The notes under the pieces are model-generated. The model did no database searches and had not been told where the DNA came from. It was given only the letters and a program-made list of their open reading frames with translations. 64,000 nucleotides of DNA. It comes from Comamonadaceae bacterium (GTDB lineage Bacteria > Pseudomonadota > Gammaproteobacteria > Burkholderiales > Burkholderiaceae_C). The stretch's first letter is position 1. Each line of letters begins with the position of its first letter. The stretch covers positions 1-64,000 of the forward strand of contig CANGPN010000009.1 in the NCBI GenBank assembly GCA_947456305.1. Reading direction: 5' to 3'. The translations under genes were made by a program, and so were the position numbers. Shown here in pieces: positions 43,545-52,852 of this stretch.

Positions 43545-44777
43545 ATGGCAATGATTGAAGGTTTCAGGGTTCAGAACTACCGGGCTCTGCGAGATGTGAC
43601 GTTGGGCAAGCTTTCAACCGATAAAGGTAGCGAGGCATTGACTCCCTTTACGGTAGTCATTGGCAAAAACGGCTCGGGGAAAAGTACCCTTTTCGATGCA
43701 TTTGGCTTTGTTGCAGATTGTCTCAATCGTGATGTCGAAACCGCCTGTGATGATCCGCGCCGTGGCGGTTTTGAGCGTATGCGCTCCATGGGAACTGAAG
43801 ATCCGATTAAATTTGAGATTTACTACCGCGAAGCACCGAACGAGCGACCGATCACCTACAAGCTTGAAATTCAGTTAGACAAGCATGGCAGGCCGTATGT
43901 CGAATCGGAGTTTCTCGGGCAGCGGCGGCTGGGGCAACAATACGGCAGACCACACCCATTCTTGCGACTCAAACGCGGTAAAGGAAAAGCTTGGGCTGGC
44001 AATGAGGCGGTTCAAGGTGAGGGGGACGAAGAACCCACCATTCAAGTTGATGTGAAGTTGACTGACCCAAGGCAACTGGGAATTGCCACGTTGGGAACGC
44101 TCAAGGAGCATCCCCGTATTAAACGGTTTCGTGACTTCTTGAAAGGCTGGTATCTCTCCTACTTCCATCCAGACGCTGCCAGGACAGTTCCACCCGCAGG
44201 CGCGCAAAAGCACCTCAACATCCACGGCGACAATATCGGAAACGTAGTGCAATACATGCAGCGTGAACAAGGTGCGCGCTTCAAGCACGTGCTCAGGCGC
44301 ATCGCCGAAAAAATTCCGGGCATACAGTCGATTGAGGCGGAGCCGACTATCGACAAGCGCCTTGCACTCAAGTTCAACGATGGCGCATTTCAGGATTCCT
44401 TTTACGCAGGACAAATGTCAGATGGCACCCTTAAGGTGTTTGCCTATCTGCTACTGATGGAAGATCCTGATCCACCGCCATTTATCGGCATTGAGGAACC
44501 CGAAAACGGTCTCTATCACAAGCTTCTGGATTCACTGGCCAGTGAACTTCGATCACACGCCACAGGCAAGCGAAATGCATCGCAAGTTTTTGTAACTACT
44601 CATCAGCCTTACTTCGTGGACGCACTGGAACCCAGTGAGGTTTGGGTGCTCAAAAAGAGAGGTGATGGCTTTTCGCAGATCCAGCGCGTTTCAGACATCG
44701 TCTTGGTTCAGAACATGGTGGATCAAGGCTTGCCCTTAGGTGGTCTCTGGTACAGCGACTATTTGGACTCGGAGTGA
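43545..44777 (+). CDS. AAA (ABC-type) ATPase of the defence locus
   Basis: A 410-aa SMC/RecF-like ATPase. N-terminal FRVQNYRALRDVTLGKL, Walker A FTVVIGKNGSGKSTLFDAFG (about residue 40), a signature-like GQMSDGTLKVFAYLLLM (about 295), Walker B FIGIEEPENGLYH (about 320), and switch VFVTTHQPYFVDAL. The family is shared by OLD-like and Abi-type defence proteins. It starts 9 bp after the mod remnant with a good ribosome site and is followed 3 bp later by a DUF4276 gene, so the two form a unit. Both are intact. Confidence 0.86.
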   Translation: MAMIEGFRVQNYRALRDVTLGKLSTDKGSEALTPFTVVIGKNGSGKSTLFDAFGFVADCLNRDVETACDDPRRGGFERMRSMGTEDPIKFEIYYREAPNERPITYKLEIQLDKHGRPYVESEFLGQRRLGQQYGRPHPFLRLKRGKGKAWAGNEAVQGEGDEEPTIQVDVKLTDPRQLGIATLGTLKEHPRIKRFRDFLKGWYLSYFHPDAARTVPPAGAQKHLNIHGDNIGNVVQYMQREQGARFKHVLRRIAEKIPGIQSIEAEPTIDKRLALKFNDGAFQDSFYAGQMSDGTLKVFAYLLLMEDPDPPPFIGIEEPENGLYHKLLDSLASELRSHATGKRNASQVFVTTHQPYFVDALEPSEVWVLKKRGDGFSQIQRVSDIVLVQNMVDQGLPLGGLWYSDYLDSE

Positions 44778-44780
44778 GTC

Positions 44781-45425
44781 ATGCATATTGAAGTATTGGT
44801 GGAAGACAGTTCCGGCGCAGCTTTGATGGAGCAACTTATTCCGAAGCTTCTCAAGCCGTCAACATACACCTATACCTTCAAAGTACATGGGTACGGAGGT
44901 ATTGGGCATATTCCAAAGAACATGAAGCGCACGACAGATGCATACAAAAAAACCTTGCTCGATAAGCTGCCTGCAATGCTTCTAGGCTATGCGCAGACGC
45001 CAGGCTATGACGCGGTGATCGTGCTTGTGGACACGGACAATCGGAATCCCGTTGACTTCCGGCGCGACTTAGAAGTCATGTACAAGCGATTGGCAAAAGC
45101 ACCAAAAACAGCTTTTTGCATGGCCACAGAAGAAGTCGAAGCTTGGTATCTGGGTGATCGCAAGGCACTGCTGACCGCCTACCCGAGGGCAAACAACAAA
45201 ATATTGAAGAGATACAAGCAAGACTCAGTTTGCGGAACCTGGGAATTACTGGCAGAGGCTCTGGTCAAAGGTGGTGCAGAGGCACTTAAAAAAGAAGGTT
45301 TTCACAGCATTGGTGCATTCAAGCATGAGTGTGCCGCGCAAATCACCCCACACATGGAGCCAAGGAACAACCTCTCACCCAGTTTCAAAGATACAGAGGC
45401 CAGAGTGCAAGCATTGGTCGATTAA
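44781..45425 (+). CDS. DUF4276 protein (Toprim-like), partner of the ATPase
   Basis: A 214-aa protein. It begins IEVLVEDSSGAALMEQLIPKL, with an early glutamate, and has YDAVIVLVDTDNRNP (DxD) at about residue 77, then FCMATEEVEAWYLGD. An early E followed by DxD is the arrangement of Toprim folds, seen in nucleases that act with ABC-type ATPases. By analogy this could be the effector of a two-gene anti-phage system, but that is inference. The end ITPHMEPRNNLSPSFKD is family-typical. Confidence 0.82.
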   Translation: MHIEVLVEDSSGAALMEQLIPKLLKPSTYTYTFKVHGYGGIGHIPKNMKRTTDAYKKTLLDKLPAMLLGYAQTPGYDAVIVLVDTDNRNPVDFRRDLEVMYKRLAKAPKTAFCMATEEVEAWYLGDRKALLTAYPRANNKILKRYKQDSVCGTWELLAEALVKGGAEALKKEGFHSIGAFKHECAAQITPHMEPRNNLSPSFKDTEARVQALVD

Positions 45426-46847: not shown

Positions 46848-48116
46848 TCAATAAGTCTCCAACTGCAACCTGCCCTCTTGCTTCAATCTCTCGGCAACAG
46901 AAGCCCAATCCAAACCTGCGCCCACAGCAATGTCGTGCAAGGCCTGCAACACGCCTTCTTCCATGCTCTTCAAACCGCAGACATAAAAATGCGTTTGCGG
47001 GTCTTGCAGCAAAGTCGCCAGTTCGGTGGACGCGTCGCGCATCGCGTCTTGCACATAGCGTTTGGGCGCGCCGGGTGTGCGTGAAAACGCAAAGTGGATA
47101 TCGATGAAATCTTTGGGCAGTTTTTGCAACGGCCCGAAGTAGGGCAACTCTTGTTGGGTGCGCGCGCCGAAAAACAGCATCAGCTTGCCGCCTTGAAATT
47201 TGCCGTTCGCTTGTATGCGTCTGCGCCACTCGGTCATGCCGCGCATGGGCGCGCTGCCGGTGCCGGTGCAAATCATCACCAGGTGGCTGCCGGGGTGGTT
47301 GGGCATCAAAAAACTGCTGCCGAACGGACCTATCACTTGAACGCTGTCGCCGGTTTTCAAATCGCACAAATAGTTGGACGCCACGCCTTTGACGGCTTGA
47401 CCTTGGTGGTCTTGCACCACGCGTTTCACTGTGAGCGACAAGTTGTTGTATCCGGCGCGCTCGCCGTTGCGCGGGCTGGCCACAGAGTATTGGCGCGCAT
47501 GGTGCGGCTTGCCGTTGGCATCCACGCCGGGCGGCACGATGCCTACCGATTGACCTTCAAGCACAGGAAACGGCATGCTGCCAAAGTCCAGCACGATGTG
47601 ATGTGTTTCGTTGTCTGTGCCCGCTTCATTCACTTGCATATTGCCGACCACCGTCGCGGTGATGGGCGACTTGGAGCCGTGCAAATTCGTGTACGGATGC
47701 GCGGCAGACCAAGGCGGCACAACAGCGCCCATGGCTGCGGTATTGAGCGCGGGCGCAGCGGTACTGGTGGTTGGCACGGACGTGGCCAATGTTTCAAACG
47801 CGGTGCTGCCTGAAACTTGCGAAGTGGCTGGCAATGCATCCACCGCTTGCGCGGCGGGCAATTCGTCCCATGACAACTGCTCCTCTAATGTGTAAGCCTT
47901 GCTGCGCAACACTGGTAACCAATGGTCAATCGAGCCTGTGGGACAAGGCGGCACGCAAGCCATGCAGTGGTTGCATTTGTCGGGGTCGACAACGTAGTTG
48001 CGGCTGTCATGTGTGACTGCGCCGACGGGACAGGTAGCTTCGCAGGTGTTGCAGCGTATGCACACTTCAGGGTCGATCACGTGTTGCTGTAGCAGTTCGG
48101 CGGTGTCTGTACTCAT
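46848..48116 (-). CDS. boxA: Benzoyl-CoA 2,3-epoxidase reductase subunit
   Basis: NADPH-dependent flavoprotein feeding electrons to BoxB. The 422-aa protein has two N-terminal 4Fe-4S motifs, CIRCNTCEATCPVGA (about 18-32) and CNHCMACVPPCPTGS (about 47-61), and a variable Ala/Thr-rich linker. A ferredoxin-NADP reductase-like domain follows: RQYSVASPRNGE for FAD, VMICTGTGSAPMRGM for NADPH, and a final YVCGLKSMEEGV. It is third in boxC-boxB-boxA, separated from boxB by 654 bp of repeats, which is unusual. Confidence 0.95.
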   Translation of the reverse strand: MSTDTAELLQQHVIDPEVCIRCNTCEATCPVGAVTHDSRNYVVDPDKCNHCMACVPPCPTGSIDHWLPVLRSKAYTLEEQLSWDELPAAQAVDALPATSQVSGSTAFETLATSVPTTSTAAPALNTAAMGAVVPPWSAAHPYTNLHGSKSPITATVVGNMQVNEAGTDNETHHIVLDFGSMPFPVLEGQSVGIVPPGVDANGKPHHARQYSVASPRNGERAGYNNLSLTVKRVVQDHQGQAVKGVASNYLCDLKTGDSVQVIGPFGSSFLMPNHPGSHLVMICTGTGSAPMRGMTEWRRRIQANGKFQGGKLMLFFGARTQQELPYFGPLQKLPKDFIDIHFAFSRTPGAPKRYVQDAMRDASTELATLLQDPQTHFYVCGLKSMEEGVLQALHDIAVGAGLDWASVAERLKQEGRLQLETY

Positions 48117-48239
48117 GGCTTTGTTTCTTGGTGACGTTGTAGTGATTGTGTCTGCAAATGCTTGGGGCTTTGTTTATCAGTTGTTTACTGAGTGATTGTT
48201 TTGTTCTTCGTGGCGGTTTGTGATGAGCCCAAGGCCATA

Positions 48240-48297
48240 CAGGCCGGGGCCGGGTTCCTCATGCGCAAGCTTGAAATCGTCACCCGGCCCCGGCCTG
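48240..48297 (+). repeat. Fixed-loop hairpin element, copy 1 (inverted orientation)
   Basis: A perfect 16-bp stem (CAGGCCGGGGCCGGGT, 48240-48255, against 48282-48297) closing a 26-nt loop (48256-48281). The loop contains CATGCGCAAGCTTGAAATCG. Read on the opposite strand the loop matches those of copies 2 and 3 in at least 25 of 26 positions, while the stem sequence differs from theirs. Confidence 0.85.
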
Positions 48298-48410
48298 CAT
48301 GTCCTCTGCGAAGTTGCGCTCTGTGTTTACGGTGCATCCCAAGCTGAAACGGCAGTGAAAGTGCATTTTCCCATTCGAGGACATGCTTAACATGCCATAC
48401 GCAGCGCGGT

Positions 48411-48472
48411 GGCAGCGGCAGGCGGGGTAACGATTTCAAGCTTGCGCATGAGGAACCCCGCCTGCCGTTGCC
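48411..48472 (-). repeat. Fixed-loop hairpin element, copy 2
   Basis: An 18-bp stem GGCAGCGGCAGGCGGGGT (48411-48428) pairs with 48455-48472, with one G-T pair. The 26-nt loop (48429-48454) contains CGATTTCAAGCTTGCGCATG. Part of the 112-bp direct repeat A. Confidence 0.85.
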
Positions 48473-48522
48473 GTCAAGCGAGCTCAGCACTTAAGCACAT
48501 GACGACACAAAACTCGTTGCCG
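48411..48522. repeat. 112-bp direct repeat, copy A
   Basis: The hairpin copy 2 plus a tail containing TTAAGCACATGACGACACAA. It recurs exactly 220 bp later (48631-48742) with six differences by eye. A partial third tail (CCAAGCGAGCTCAGCACTTG) follows directly at 48523. Confidence 0.85.
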
Positions 48523-48630
48523 CCAAGCGAGCTCAGCACTTGAGCCAGTCACCACACAAACTTCACTGCCTCGACATCAGTTCAGCAAAAGCAAAACCTT
48601 GCACGCAAATAACGCAGTTCACAGCACAGT

Positions 48631-48692
48631 GGCAGCGGCAGGCGGGGTGACGATTTCAAGCTTGCGCATGAGGAGCCCCGCCTGTCGTTGCC
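48631..48692 (-). repeat. Fixed-loop hairpin element, copy 3
   Basis: The same left stem as copy 2 (48631-48648). The right arm (48675-48692) carries A-to-G and C-to-T changes, both of which keep pairing as G-T wobbles. The 26-nt loop (48649-48674) is identical to that of copy 1 (other strand) and differs from copy 2 at one base. Confidence 0.85.
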
Positions 48693-48742
48693 GCCAAGCG
48701 GGTTCAGCACTTAAGCACATGACGACACAAAACTCGTTGCCG
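48631..48742. repeat. 112-bp direct repeat, copy B
   Basis: Second copy of the repeat at 48411-48522, about 95% identical, ending 29 bp before the boxB stop. Together the copies fill most of the boxB-boxA gap, in which I see no gene. Confidence 0.85.
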
Positions 48743-48770
48743 ACGCGCGGGTTCAGCCCTCAAGCGGCAA

Positions 48771-50198
48771 TCAGTTGAAACGAACGTACTCGAAATCAAC
48801 CGGCTGACGATTGATACCAATCGCAGGTGGCGCAATCCAGTTCGCAAACTTGCCCGGCTCAGCCACACGCCCCATCAGACTTTGTACAAACGCACGGTCT
48901 TCAGCCGTCGGCAACCATTCGCCCACTTTGGCATTCCATTCGTTGTCGGACACCACGCGGCCATCCGGTGACACCTTGGCGCCGGACAAAGCGCCGATGT
49001 TGCGGTGAAACGCTTTGTGCGGCACGCTCAAACGGTGCGGCAAACCGGCTTTCTCAATCACACGGTTCCAACGATCCACACCACCGACAGAGTCTTTGAT
49101 GTAGTCGTCGCGCAGCACTTCGTTCAACGCATTCAGCATAGGCACTTCTTTTTCTTGCAACTGCCCGTTGACCACGTGCAGCACCTTGTACGTCTGGCCG
49201 CGCAACATATGGTCGTCGTCGCGCTTGGTTTCTTCATAGCGACCTTTGATGCCTGTCGAATAAAACGTGGCCGCGTTGCTGGACTCGTCCGCGCCAAACA
49301 AGTCGATGGTCACGCTGAAGTGGAAATTCAGGTAACGCTGAATCGTCGGTAAATCGATCACGCCTGCTGCGCGCAGTTTGCCCACGTCGTCGGTCTTCAA
49401 TTCATTCATGGCGGCGCAGGTGCGCTGAATCACGCGGCTGATGCCGGACTCGCCGACAAACATGTGGTGTGCTTCTTCGGTCAGCATGAACTTGGTGGTG
49501 CGCGCCAACGGGTCGAAACTGCTTTCCGCCAAAGCGCACAACTGAAACTTGCCATCACGGTCGGTGAAATAAGTGAACATGAAGAAGCTCAGCCAATCCG
49601 GTGTCTCTTCGTTGAAGGCTTGCAAAATGCGCGGGTTGTCTTCCTGACCGCTGCGACGCTCAAGCAGCGCCTCGGCTTCTTCGCGGCCATCGCGGCCGAA
49701 ATGCTTGTGCAGCAAATACACCATGGCCCACAGGTGACGGCCTTCTTCCACGTTGATCTGAAACAGATTGCGCAAGTCGTACATGCTAGGGGCGGTCTTG
49801 CCCAAGTGACGCTGCTGCTCGACAGACGCAGGCTCTGTGTCGCCTTGCGTGACGATGATGCGGCGCAAGTTCGCACGGTGTTCGCCAGGCACGTCTTGCC
49901 AAGCCTTCTCGCCTTTGTGGTCGCCGAAGTGAATCGTGCGATCCGCTTCGCCCTGGTTCAAGAAAATGCCCCAACGGTAGTCGCGCATCTTCACGTGGCC
50001 GAATTGCGCCCAGCCTTGCGGGTCGACGCTGACAGCGGTGCGCAAATACACCTCGTTGTCGGTCGTGCCTTCGGGGCCCATGTCGTCCCACCAGTTGATG
50101 AAGTTGGGCTGCCATTGCTCCAAGGCGCGCTGCAATGTGCGGTCGCTGCCCAGGTCCACGTTGTTCGGGATTTTTTCGCTGTAGTTGATGGCTGACAT
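48771..50198 (-). CDS. boxB: Benzoyl-CoA 2,3-epoxidase oxygenase subunit
   Basis: Di-iron oxygenase making 2,3-epoxybenzoyl-CoA, the key step of aerobic CoA-dependent benzoate breakdown. The 475-aa protein opens ISYSEKIPNNVDL-like (NYSEKIPNNVDLGSDRTLQ) and carries the iron-ligand segments EGRHLWAMVYLLHKHFG (about 150) and LTEEAHHMFVGESG (about 240), plus FHFSVTIDLFG. GGAG precedes the ATG. Middle gene of the box operon. Confidence 0.96.
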   Translation of the reverse strand: MSAINYSEKIPNNVDLGSDRTLQRALEQWQPNFINWWDDMGPEGTTDNEVYLRTAVSVDPQGWAQFGHVKMRDYRWGIFLNQGEADRTIHFGDHKGEKAWQDVPGEHRANLRRIIVTQGDTEPASVEQQRHLGKTAPSMYDLRNLFQINVEEGRHLWAMVYLLHKHFGRDGREEAEALLERRSGQEDNPRILQAFNEETPDWLSFFMFTYFTDRDGKFQLCALAESSFDPLARTTKFMLTEEAHHMFVGESGISRVIQRTCAAMNELKTDDVGKLRAAGVIDLPTIQRYLNFHFSVTIDLFGADESSNAATFYSTGIKGRYEETKRDDDHMLRGQTYKVLHVVNGQLQEKEVPMLNALNEVLRDDYIKDSVGGVDRWNRVIEKAGLPHRLSVPHKAFHRNIGALSGAKVSPDGRVVSDNEWNAKVGEWLPTAEDRAFVQSLMGRVAEPGKFANWIAPPAIGINRQPVDFEYVRFN

Positions 50199-50315: not shown

Positions 50316-51980
50316 TCAGACGCGGTTCATGTCAAAAGCGGCTTTCTCGCCTTTGCCGTACACCTTTAACGCGCCCTTGTCACCGACCGCATTCGGCCGG
50401 TTGAAGATCCAGTTCTGCCAAGCCGACAAGCGGCCGAAGATGCGTGTTTCCATGGACTCTTTCTGGCTGAAGCGCAGGTTGGCTTCCAAGCCGGTGAGTG
50501 AGTCGGGCGACATGGCGGCGCGTTCTTCGATGGCGATGCGCAATTCATCCGCCCAGTCAATGTCATCCGGCGCAGCGGTGACCAAACCCAGCACCAAGGC
50601 TTTGTCTGCGTCCAACGCTTGACCAACTACCGCACGCACGGCTTCCATTGGCGCAGTCTCTTCGTAAAAACGGCGCTGCAAACGCGACTGGTGGTTCACC
50701 ATGGGGAACACGCCGAAATTCACGTCACTCAAAGCAATGTGGGGCGCGGTGTCAGGCGCATCCGGCAATGCCAACATGTAAGCGCGATCTGCAGCAAAAG
50801 CCAGTTCAGCCAATGTGCCTGCAAAGCATGAGCCTTCATCAATCAAGGCAAACATGGAACGTGAAGACACATCCAAACGCGCCAACGTGCGGCGCAACAA
50901 ACCTGTGGTTTCTTTCACCAGCCAATGGTCTTGATGCTGCATCAACACCGCATCTGATTGCAATGCCAGTTTGGCGTCGCCTTGTGTACGCAGCAGCCAA
51001 GTGCCGATGTCGAGTTCGTTGGTGCGCAAACTCAAAATTGCGTCGTCCAATTCGCGCGCCATTTGCAACGGGTACCAACTGTCACCGGCTGCTTGAATCT
51101 CAGACACATCACTCAACACTTTGCCTACAGGTGCTGAGACGCAAATAGTGGCCGTGCGTTTTTCGCGGTCGATATCGACTTTCACATAGGTGTAGTGCAA
51201 GCTGTCGGCTGTTACTGTTTTGTTCAAAGGATGAAGCTTCACGCCCTGGCCTTTTGCAGCAGCGCCTGATCGTTGGCTGCTTGCTGCGAGTTGCGCGGCA
51301 CGTTCAGACACAGCTGTCGTGAATTGCGCGGGTTTGGCAATCGCATCGACCAAACGCCAATCAACGGCACGCTGACCGCGCACGCCTTCCACACTGGTGC
51401 AAAAAATGTCCGCATGGTCGTGACGCACATGGCGCTTGTCGGTGACGCGGGTCAAACCGCCGGTGCCGGGCAACACGCCAAGCAATGGCACTTCAGGCAA
51501 TGACACGCTGCTGGAGCGGTCGTCGACCAGCAATATCTCGTCACACGCCAAGGCCAACTCGTAGCCGCCACCGGCACACGCGCCATTCACGGCGGCCAGA
51601 AATTTCAATCCGCCGTGTCGGCTGCTGTCTTCCAAACCATTGCGTGTTTCATTGGTGAATTTGCAAAAGTTAACCTTCCATGCATGGGTAGATAAACCCA
51701 ACATGAAGATGTTCGCGCCCGAGCAAAAAATGCGGTCTTTCAAGCTGGTGACCACCACGGCTTTCACCTCAGGGTGCTCAAAGCGCAAACGTTGCACCGC
51801 GTCGTTCAATTCAATGTCCACGCCCAAGTCATATGAATTGAGTTTGAGTTTGTAGCCAGGCAGGATGCCGCCGTCTTCTTGTATGTCAAGCGACAAGGTG
51901 GCAATCTCGCCATCCACGGTGAAAGACCAGTGGCGGTAGTGTTCGGGGCTGGTCTGGTAATTGACAGAAAAATCGGTCAT
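50316..51980 (-). CDS. boxC: 2,3-Epoxybenzoyl-CoA dihydrolase
   Basis: Opens the ring of 2,3-epoxybenzoyl-CoA to a dehydroadipyl-CoA semialdehyde with loss of formate. From ATG 51980 (AAGGAA before it) it is 554 aa. Two enoyl-CoA-hydratase-like halves are visible: VTSLKDRIFCSGANIFMLG, LAAVNGACAGGGYELALACDE (oxyanion-hole region) and VPLLGVLPGTGGLTRVTDKR; the second half has FALIDEGSCFAGTLAELAFA. The end FNRPNAVGDKGALKVYGKG is BoxC-specific. First gene of the operon. Confidence 0.96.
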   Translation of the reverse strand: MTDFSVNYQTSPEHYRHWSFTVDGEIATLSLDIQEDGGILPGYKLKLNSYDLGVDIELNDAVQRLRFEHPEVKAVVVTSLKDRIFCSGANIFMLGLSTHAWKVNFCKFTNETRNGLEDSSRHGGLKFLAAVNGACAGGGYELALACDEILLVDDRSSSVSLPEVPLLGVLPGTGGLTRVTDKRHVRHDHADIFCTSVEGVRGQRAVDWRLVDAIAKPAQFTTAVSERAAQLAASSQRSGAAAKGQGVKLHPLNKTVTADSLHYTYVKVDIDREKRTATICVSAPVGKVLSDVSEIQAAGDSWYPLQMARELDDAILSLRTNELDIGTWLLRTQGDAKLALQSDAVLMQHQDHWLVKETTGLLRRTLARLDVSSRSMFALIDEGSCFAGTLAELAFAADRAYMLALPDAPDTAPHIALSDVNFGVFPMVNHQSRLQRRFYEETAPMEAVRAVVGQALDADKALVLGLVTAAPDDIDWADELRIAIEERAAMSPDSLTGLEANLRFSQKESMETRIFGRLSAWQNWIFNRPNAVGDKGALKVYGKGEKAAFDMNRV

Positions 51981-52032
51981 GGCATTTCCTTGGGTTGTAC
52001 GCTCAGGCACATCGGTTCAACTGGCGAAGGTG

Positions 52033-52078: not shown

Positions 52079-52852
52079 CTACACTAGGGTTTGGCAATAT
52101 TTTTTGAGCGCCTGAAAGCAGTCTTCTTGCGATTGAGCGCTGGTGTTCAACTGCCAGTCTGCGCGGGCGTAAGACGGGCTGCGGTCTTGCAGAATCCGGC
52201 GCAAATCGCCCATGGCCTCAGGGCTGGCCGCCATCGGCCGGGTGTCACCCTGTGCCACCACCCGCGCCATGTGGTCTTCGGGGGTGGCTTGCAGCCAAAC
52301 GGTGAAACACTGCGCCAGCAGCAACTGAAAACTCGCCTCATCAGACACCAGACCGCCGGGCGTGGCCAGCACCAAGTGAGAGTGTTGGGCCAGGCTGTCT
52401 TCCAAGGCGCGGCGCTCGTAGCGCCGGTAGGCCTGGGGCCCGTACAAACCATGGATTTCGCTGATGCTGCAACCGGCGAGGGTTTCGATGACTCGGCTGA
52501 CTTCGACAAACACAAAGCCGAGTTCGCGCGCCAACCGCTGGCCCAGCGTGGATTTACCGGCACCGCGCAGGCCGATGAGCGCAATATGCTGATGACGCGA
52601 CTTAACGCTGACGGCCTCTTCCAAAATCAGGCTGGCCAGGCCGCACTGCAAGGCCTTGGCCACCTGCAACAGCACCAGCACCGAGGCGTTGCCGGTACCT
52701 GCCTCCAGGTTGGCCCAATGCCGCTCAGACACCTGAGCCCGGGCGGCGGCGGCCTTGCGCGTGAGTCCGCGACGCGAGCGCAAAGCACGCACACGCTCGC
52801 CCAGCGCGGTCAAATAAGGATGCCGTTCTTCGGCAGATTCAGGTAAAGCCAT
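52079..52852 (-). CDS. boxR: Benzoyl-CoA-responsive regulator (HTH plus shikimate-kinase-like)
   Basis: A 257-aa repressor of the BzdR/BoxR family. The N-terminal XRE HTH (LGERVRALRSRRGLTRKAAA, RAQVSERHWANLEAG) is followed by a linker (KALQCGLASLILEE) and a shikimate-kinase-like domain (IALIGLRGAGKSTLGQRLA, LATPGGLVSDEASF) that in this family senses benzoyl-CoA. The P-loop is intact. It lies directly upstream of boxC on the same strand, with TGCA-N6-TGCA sites before both genes, implying control of the operon and of itself. Confidence 0.93.
   Translation of the reverse strand: MALPESAEERHPYLTALGERVRALRSRRGLTRKAAAARAQVSERHWANLEAGTGNASVLVLLQVAKALQCGLASLILEEAVSVKSRHQHIALIGLRGAGKSTLGQRLARELGFVFVEVSRVIETLAGCSISEIHGLYGPQAYRRYERRALEDSLAQHSHLVLATPGGLVSDEASFQLLLAQCFTVWLQATPEDHMARVVAQGDTRPMAASPEAMGDLRRILQDRSPSYARADWQLNTSAQSQEDCFQALKKYCQTLV

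Follow-up and report, generated by a model that had tools for sequence, protein, structure and literature searches.

A dispersed palindromic element with locus-specific stems and a conserved folded core, present in the boxB-boxA gap of a Comamonadaceae bacterium

Three hairpins between boxB and boxA

The window, that is the whole stretch of 64,000 nt analysed here (contig CANGPN010000009.1 of a Comamonadaceae bacterium), includes the genes boxA, boxB and boxC, identified by NCBIfam matches above cut-off, and a 654-nt insert between boxB and boxA that holds three hairpins (Table 1). Recomputation of arms and loops confirmed that each hairpin closes a loop of 26 nt, as a sequence-only reading of the locus had stated, and that these loops match in at least 25 positions, copies 1 and 3 being identical and copy 2 one base off. 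In copy 1 the two arms (48232-48255 and 48282-48305) are 24 nt each and 92% complementary, and in copy 2 (48411-48428 and 48455-48472) they are 18 nt each and 94% complementary. Copy 3 has the same 18-nt arm as copy 2 (48631-48648) facing its partner at 48675-48692, with a G-T wobble as first pair.

Table 1. Features of the box-operon locus (positions in the window)
Feature	Position	Strand	Basis
boxA, downstream gene	46848..48116	-	TIGR03224, 713.8 bits, cut-off 459.2
Complete boxB-boxA intergenic insert, 654 nt	48117..48770		comparison of same-genus gaps
Hairpin copy 1 (loop 48256-48281)	48230..48305	folded strand -, sense to box operon	arms, fold, model R1 68.4 bits
144-nt direct repeat, first copy, with hairpin 2	48402..48545		repeat family D1
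Hairpin copy 2 (loop 48429-48454)	48405..48480	folded strand +, antisense to box operon	arms, fold, model R1 59.9 bits
144-nt direct repeat, second copy, with hairpin 3	48622..48765		89% identical, repeat family D1
Hairpin copy 3 (loop 48649-48674)	48625..48700	folded strand +, antisense to box operon	arms, fold, model R1 55.2 bits
boxB, upstream gene	48771..50198	-	TIGR03225, 903.5 bits, cut-off 499.1
boxC, context	50316..52010	-	TIGR03222, 962 bits, cut-off 712.3
Benzoate catabolism regulator (BoxR-like), context	52079..52852	-	NF006015, 357.8 bits, cut-off 204

Folded as RNA on the better strand, the three copies gave z = -7.87, -6.45 and -6.69 (copies 1 to 3), with none of 200 shuffles as good; on the other strand the values were -6.66, -5.75 and -3.17, and for copy 3 one of 200 shuffles folded as well. 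The better-folding strand reads GACGATTT...ATGAGGA in all three (copy 2 starting with AACG) and lies on the minus strand for copy 1 and on the plus strand for copies 2 and 3, so that the opposite orientation claimed for copy 1 stands. Since copies 2 and 3 both sit in the 144-nt direct repeat, whose two copies are spaced by 220 nt, they derive from one local duplication. In the rest of this genome neither the 14-nt core without mismatch nor the covariance model described below (R1) found a further site. The suspicion that the copies are merely recent duplications therefore holds for copies 2 and 3 and agrees with the lack of another match in this genome, and it fails in the relatives, which carry many copies. 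A consensus scan of the box gap (48100-48800) revealed no promoter-like or terminator-like site, nor an intrinsic terminator made of a short-loop hairpin followed by a T-run.

Elsewhere in the window, two genes on the plus strand (43545-45425) match the candidate defence system HEC-01 (A, PDLC04182, E 1.6e-186; B, PDLC04205, E 5.1e-80; Pfam AAA_21 and DUF4276), and a bacterial RNase P RNA of class A lies at 1-301 on the minus strand, cut by the window edge.

Anatomy of the hairpin

Exact matches to the core gave 148 distinct sites in the genomes compared. Ten of them did not have the required 11 of 15 stem pairs and were dropped, leaving 138 copies; at least some of the ten are chance matches in unrelated genes, and some are real copies with a shifted stem (L120 and L137, both recovered by R1, a model built from 32 copies). 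Loops without a paired stem, which would speak against a selected structure, are thus rare. The stem has a median length of 25 bp (quartiles 25 and 27, 138 copies), and R1 matches that span the model measure 74-83 nt, with one exception of 68 nt and a GC fraction mostly between 0.5 and 0.79. Stem sequences are unrelated between most loci, related stems being found within four locus clusters (1, 5, 10 and 15). In alignment A2, 95.5% of 891 cells are paired, a percentage favoured by the fact that the structure was derived from the very sequences scored, and 304 two-sided changes were counted against 88.3 in shuffled alignments; the covariation score was 0.909, against 0.198 when shuffled and at most 0.172 when the structure was slid. 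The shuffled folding and the shuffled covariation speak against a chance origin of the hairpins. Among the departures from the majority sequence of a locus, 98 cells changed on both sides, 92 of them ending as Watson-Crick pairs, so pairing is kept at shared loci through two-sided changes; these counts include orthologous copies, which are not independent, and cores collected partly by exact match. The 51 one-sided departures that are neither G-T nor A-C indicate that pairing is not perfect. The relatives thus keep the core on quite different yet paired stems, which bears out the earlier suggestion of selection for structure plus loop.

Beyond the stem, eight loop letters on each side lead to a small variable inner hairpin (e.g. 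CTGG-TACT-CCAG, CTG-CTCG-CAG, CTG-TAA-CAG or CAG-CTCG-CTG), which is weak in the window copies (CAAGCTTGCG). The pairs across the loop were tabulated from an alignment of the 150 top-scoring matches out of 161, which include some opposite-strand echoes; 121 rows were kept after dropping 16 duplicates, eight of other loop length, four lacking loop letters and one opposite-strand echo. Position 1-8' is G-A in 109 copies, A-C in five, G-C, G-T and A-T in two each and A-A in one; position 2-7' is A-G (115) or C-G (6), 3-6' is C-G (116) or T-A (5), 7-2' is T-A (119), T-G (1) or G-C (1), and 8-1' is T-C (88), T-T (32) or T-A (1). The central triplet of G-A, A-G and T-T is unchanged in all 121, an invariance partly favoured by detection because R1 was built from core-matched copies. 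By these counts some loop positions covary, and most of the loop forms a stacked helix enclosing a non-canonical core of three pairs. Each hairpin consists of a locus-specific stem of about 25 bp, this core and an inner hairpin.

Spread among genomes

The search with a covariance model proposed in the earlier reading placed family members in 38 of the 84 same-genus genomes (16 of the 40 good ones), with a maximum of 25 matches in one genome (G057). Outside the genus, 16 genomes were chosen for the test, the positives because earlier searches had matched them: six genomes of four other genera gave 1-15 matches each, and 10 genomes of another family (f8) gave none. An order-wide R1 search was limited to 11 scored candidates per genome, so that its negatives say little about absence. 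The loop edges, searched as a gapped pattern, gave matches in 27 of the 84 same-genus genomes, with at most 16 in a single genome, and the reversed control pattern gave four in two genomes; some single loop-edge matches are chance. Among the named contigs listed for the core pattern are Limnohabitans, Rhodoferax, Polaromonas and Malikia, together with members of unrelated phyla that we take as chance matches. As found here, the element is seen in one bacterial family only, Comamonadaceae going by the named matches. Spread on viruses was considered and rejected, since the core pattern occurs in 33 viral contigs and the outer stem in none of them (best 14 of 24 positions).

At the gathering score, Rfam returned RNase P only for the window and nothing for 12 loci with typical copies, and at E values up to 10 it gave weak matches far below that score. 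One same-genus relative, G008, has six hairpins in the same box gap, five with another loop centre, which showed which loop letters matter. They form a tandem array (L053/L196, 264-940) with periods of 174, 66 and 240, indicating that the element expands locally.

Host genes and alleles with and without the insertion

The stemmed copies occupy 110 loci, which fall into 18 groups by flanking proteins. Host or neighbouring genes include hrpA, leuS, uvrA, fdhA, pbuX, panC/gpsA, purN, pyrC, polA/thrB, ttcA, glyA/nrdR, ppc/glk, urtE, lysA/msrQ, cphA and pyrF; they are unrelated and no joint function is evident, and a common regulon was discarded. The leuS, hrpA, uvrA and fdhA copies lie inside predicted open frames; hrpA and fdhA were named from partial frames that score under the curated cut-off, which one uvrA frame (L102) narrowly misses, and contexts come from a crude longest-ORF caller, so that some labels of this kind may be wrong. 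The element may have struck uvrA repeatedly, because the frames examined in the genus of G308 and G385 (L096, L102) match UvrA. Beside a purN copy (L134, 1563-2120, minus strand) we noted a 185-aa frame with an HNH-type stretch and a weak IscB/Cas9d match far below cut-off.

The box gap was compared in 28 same-genus genomes, out of 50 in which boxB was matched (20 were left aside and two were unreadable). Counting the boxB stop codon, it measures 5-25 nt in 23 of them, 126 and 192 nt in two that lack an R1 match, and 657 nt (the genome of the window), 603 nt (G063) and 962 nt (G008) in the three that carry hairpins. In G006, whose BoxB is 99% identical, the gap is 9 nt. Family hairpins on different stems occupy the same gap in two genomes of another genus, G329 with two R1 matches and G228 with one, and a second hairpin of G228 looks half deleted.

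In leuS, 43 alleles were read, of which 20 have 15-30 nt between the flanks and five have an R1 match within 93-177 nt, while some alleles of 39-63 nt resemble a hairpin shortened by an in-frame deletion; all insert lengths are multiples of three and the frames stay open. The idea that the stem arms were copied from the target was dropped, since visual inspection of the short leuS alleles showed neither arm. The genome of the window has a 336-nt insert at the hairpin site of its relatives (G000:C17, L495) that gives no R1 match and encodes repeated peptide blocks (GSSVAGSDSSP and SPKAVSA), the former twice where other alleles hold the core; degenerate relatives of the copies lie in this leuS. 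In G042 and in G222, the latter of another genus, the leuS copy sits at the same codon position with stems that are changed yet related. The short alleles of the box gap and of leuS show that the element inserts, within genes in frame as well, and its absence from most relatives supports the mobile palindromic element that the sequence-only reading had listed among its options. Comparison of alleles established neither a target duplication nor a precise element end.

Divergent pairs

At 10 of 14 intergenic clusters (1, 2, 5-11 and 15), one or more genomes carry a second hairpin with the opposite folded strand. In the 36 pairs laid out, the folded strands point apart with 32-152 nt between them, the spacer being just 32 nt in three (L103, L132 and L153), and copy 1 of the window faces copies 2 and 3 in the same layout. 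No partner hairpin was found at the purN, hbd, lysA and cphA loci examined, which the model search covered in part. In some pairs the partners share an inner loop (CTGTAACAG and CTGGCACAG in G042, CTGTACCCAG in G078), and in L143 the inner loops differ. The related stem pairs at clusters 1, 5, 10 and 15 hint that the two hairpins of a pair can be copied together. The unit of the element is one hairpin, or two with folded strands pointing apart.

Two further observations concern arrangement. One stretch of 4.2 kb (G308:C54, 8965-13119) holds three divergent hairpin pairs, contigs C78 and C141 of G385 being part of the same observation. In G057, G074 and G049, copies lacking an exact-core partner were uniformly oriented with respect to dnaA within each replichore; the replication-strand bias of single copies, which looked strong in these genomes, was nevertheless set aside, as R1 later found partners for several of them and G047 holds exceptions.

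Comparison with known repeats and mobilisers

In the available text of Di Nocera et al. (2013, PMC3733652), GTAG/CGTC REPs, including RPE-4 and RPE-6, are dispersed palindromes with short stems (5-13 bp) and one end tagged by GTAG or CGTC, which form inverted dimers, contain G-T pairs, have variable stems with compensated changes and insert into genes, uvrA among them. The family described here shares the dispersal, the inverted dimers, the wobbles, the compensated stems and the insertion within genes, in frame in the predicted leuS, uvrA, hrpA and fdhA frames. It differs in its longer stems and in that both tags occur near stem ends at chance level (GTAG in 15 of 138 copies with 16.2 expected, CGTC in 21 with 30.0 expected); CGTC does occur in the loop of the complementary strand, away from the ends.

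The Beta-proteobacterial repeat elements (BRE), as described in the available text of Hot et al. (2011, PMC3110155), are 75-91 bp long and GC-rich, lie between genes and in coding sequences, vary in copy number per locus, and are suspected to be mobile; their hosts include Polaromonas and Rhodoferax. Size (74-83 nt here), high GC, sites that include in-frame copies, hosts and tandem variation (the G008 hairpins) are all shared, these being unspecific features compared by published description only. That text presents BRE as tandem and conserved in sequence across the class and describes no hairpin core, whereas here the stems are locus-specific and the core is folded. Our guess, from description only, is that the two families could be the same, with the balance against it. 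A literature text search returned no paper containing both GAAATCGTCA and TTCCTCATGC, and none of relevance beyond the REP/RPE and BRE work.

RAYT-like Y1 transposase genes are present in 65 of the 84 genomes, with and without hairpin copies. None of the ten loci inspected has an R1 copy next to a Y1_Tnp gene (eight of these loci are about 4 kb or less and show near flanks only), the closest copies being about 3.9 kb away, one each in G057 and G047. A RAYT was therefore rejected as the present mobiliser, and may have played a past role. The single-copy Y1 transposase genes at L368-L377 include two (L370 and L373) near AT-rich inverted repeats with AATTAATTGG, unrelated to the hairpins. In the single-stranded DNA mobility of IS200/IS605 the end hairpins lie on the same strand, whereas the 36 pairs have opposite, divergent strands. 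No enzyme or binding protein for the element was found in these comparisons.

The strand that folds

Over 24 stem pairs in 138 copies, mismatches read on one fixed strand comprise 222 G-T, 26 A-C and 111 others. Departures from the locus majority run from GC to GT in 49 cells and to AC in 14, and from AT to GT in 20 and to AC in three; the excess in the latter class means that cytosine deamination is insufficient as sole cause of the bias. Selection acts on the folding of one strand. The ratio of G-T to A-C is 47:5 between co-directional genes when the folded strand is sense and 53:5 when it is antisense, 16:3 and 36:4, respectively, within reading frames, 41:7 between convergent genes and 13:0 between divergent genes; in the hrpA copies of ten genomes, which fold on the non-coding strand, it is 21:0. 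The folding strand is thus fixed and independent of host-gene direction, which makes the host mRNA unlikely to be the selected molecule; the candidates left are single-stranded DNA and an RNA that is either antisense or independent. We lean towards DNA because some spacers are as short as 32 nt and the box gap has no promoter-like site.

On balance, and by a modest margin over even chances, we favour a mobile REP/RPE-like palindromic element whose folded core is read as single-stranded DNA by a trans-acting factor, the box copies being a mere insertion. Its dispersal, the alleles with and without it and its insertion in open reading frames are observed. The trans-acting factor would recognise the folded core on its fixed strand, during replication, transformation or transposition, and this would be the route by which the element spread, copies that cannot fold being lost or decaying. 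A folded single strand would fit the 'recombinase-type folded site' of the sequence-only reading. For the box operon, the best explanation, held with the same slight preference as the whole, is an insertion with local tandem duplication and no dedicated regulator. More tentatively, the element may represent a class defined by its fold and not by its sequence, namely a core on a 25-bp stem that a trans-acting factor would read on one fixed strand of single-stranded DNA whatever the stem or the transcription, so that each copy could evolve its own stem and stay functional.

We consider it possible, though rather unlikely, that folding is selected in RNA, in which case each hairpin, or just one per pair, would be transcribed from its own, an antisense or a read-through promoter and would act as a small RNA or a protein-bound UTR hairpin. 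G-T wobbles are better tolerated in RNA than in DNA, so that their frequency on one strand also fits RNA, as do the strong RNA folding of the window copies (copy 3 on its right strand folds better than on the other by 14 kcal/mol as RNA and by 5 as DNA) and the divergent pairs, through which a transcript in either direction would include one hairpin in the right orientation. The triplet of G-A, A-G and U-U between helices is a known feature of box C/D, k-turn and SECIS cores; here the three-nucleotide bulge of these motifs is missing, and Rfam gave the copies no match at the gathering score. If BRE are related, the 80-nt transcript BprJ1, reported from a BRE locus in Bordetella in the text available (PMC3110155), would also support RNA. 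Against it stand the equal bias at copies that fold on the antisense strand, whether between co-directional genes or within frames, the 32-nt spacers, which leave little room for two promoters, and the lack of a promoter-like site in the consensus scan of the box gap.

It is improbable that the arms were kept complementary by self-templated correction, through strand switching in an extruded hairpin and without selection: arms that stay paired regardless of sequence are what such correction would give, but it has no simple account of the fixed strand bias and leaves the invariant triplet and the covarying loop pairs unexplained. An RNA element of the box operon that uncouples boxA from boxB, an option of the earlier reading to which the stable hairpins between two co-directional genes and their recurrence in this gap in two genomes of another genus lend some appeal, is very improbable and not supported, given the 25 of 28 readable same-genus gaps that lack it, copies 2 and 3 folding antisense to the operon, the many unrelated host genes, the wobble bias alike in sense and antisense, and the negative scan of the box gap for promoters and terminators.

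Meaning for the family

What is unusual here is a mobile palindrome kept by its fold and not by its sequence, on one fixed strand and in any direction of transcription. The long stem preserves its pairing and length with little regard to sequence, and the non-canonical core of three pairs is invariant. The many compensatory changes at shared loci, taken with the fixed strand, make it possible to tell selection on the host mRNA from selection on some other single strand. The family also cautions against taking a stable hairpin inside an operon for a regulator of that operon. A core-reading protein would reveal how a repeat recognised by its structure spreads and persists, even in essential genes like leuS.
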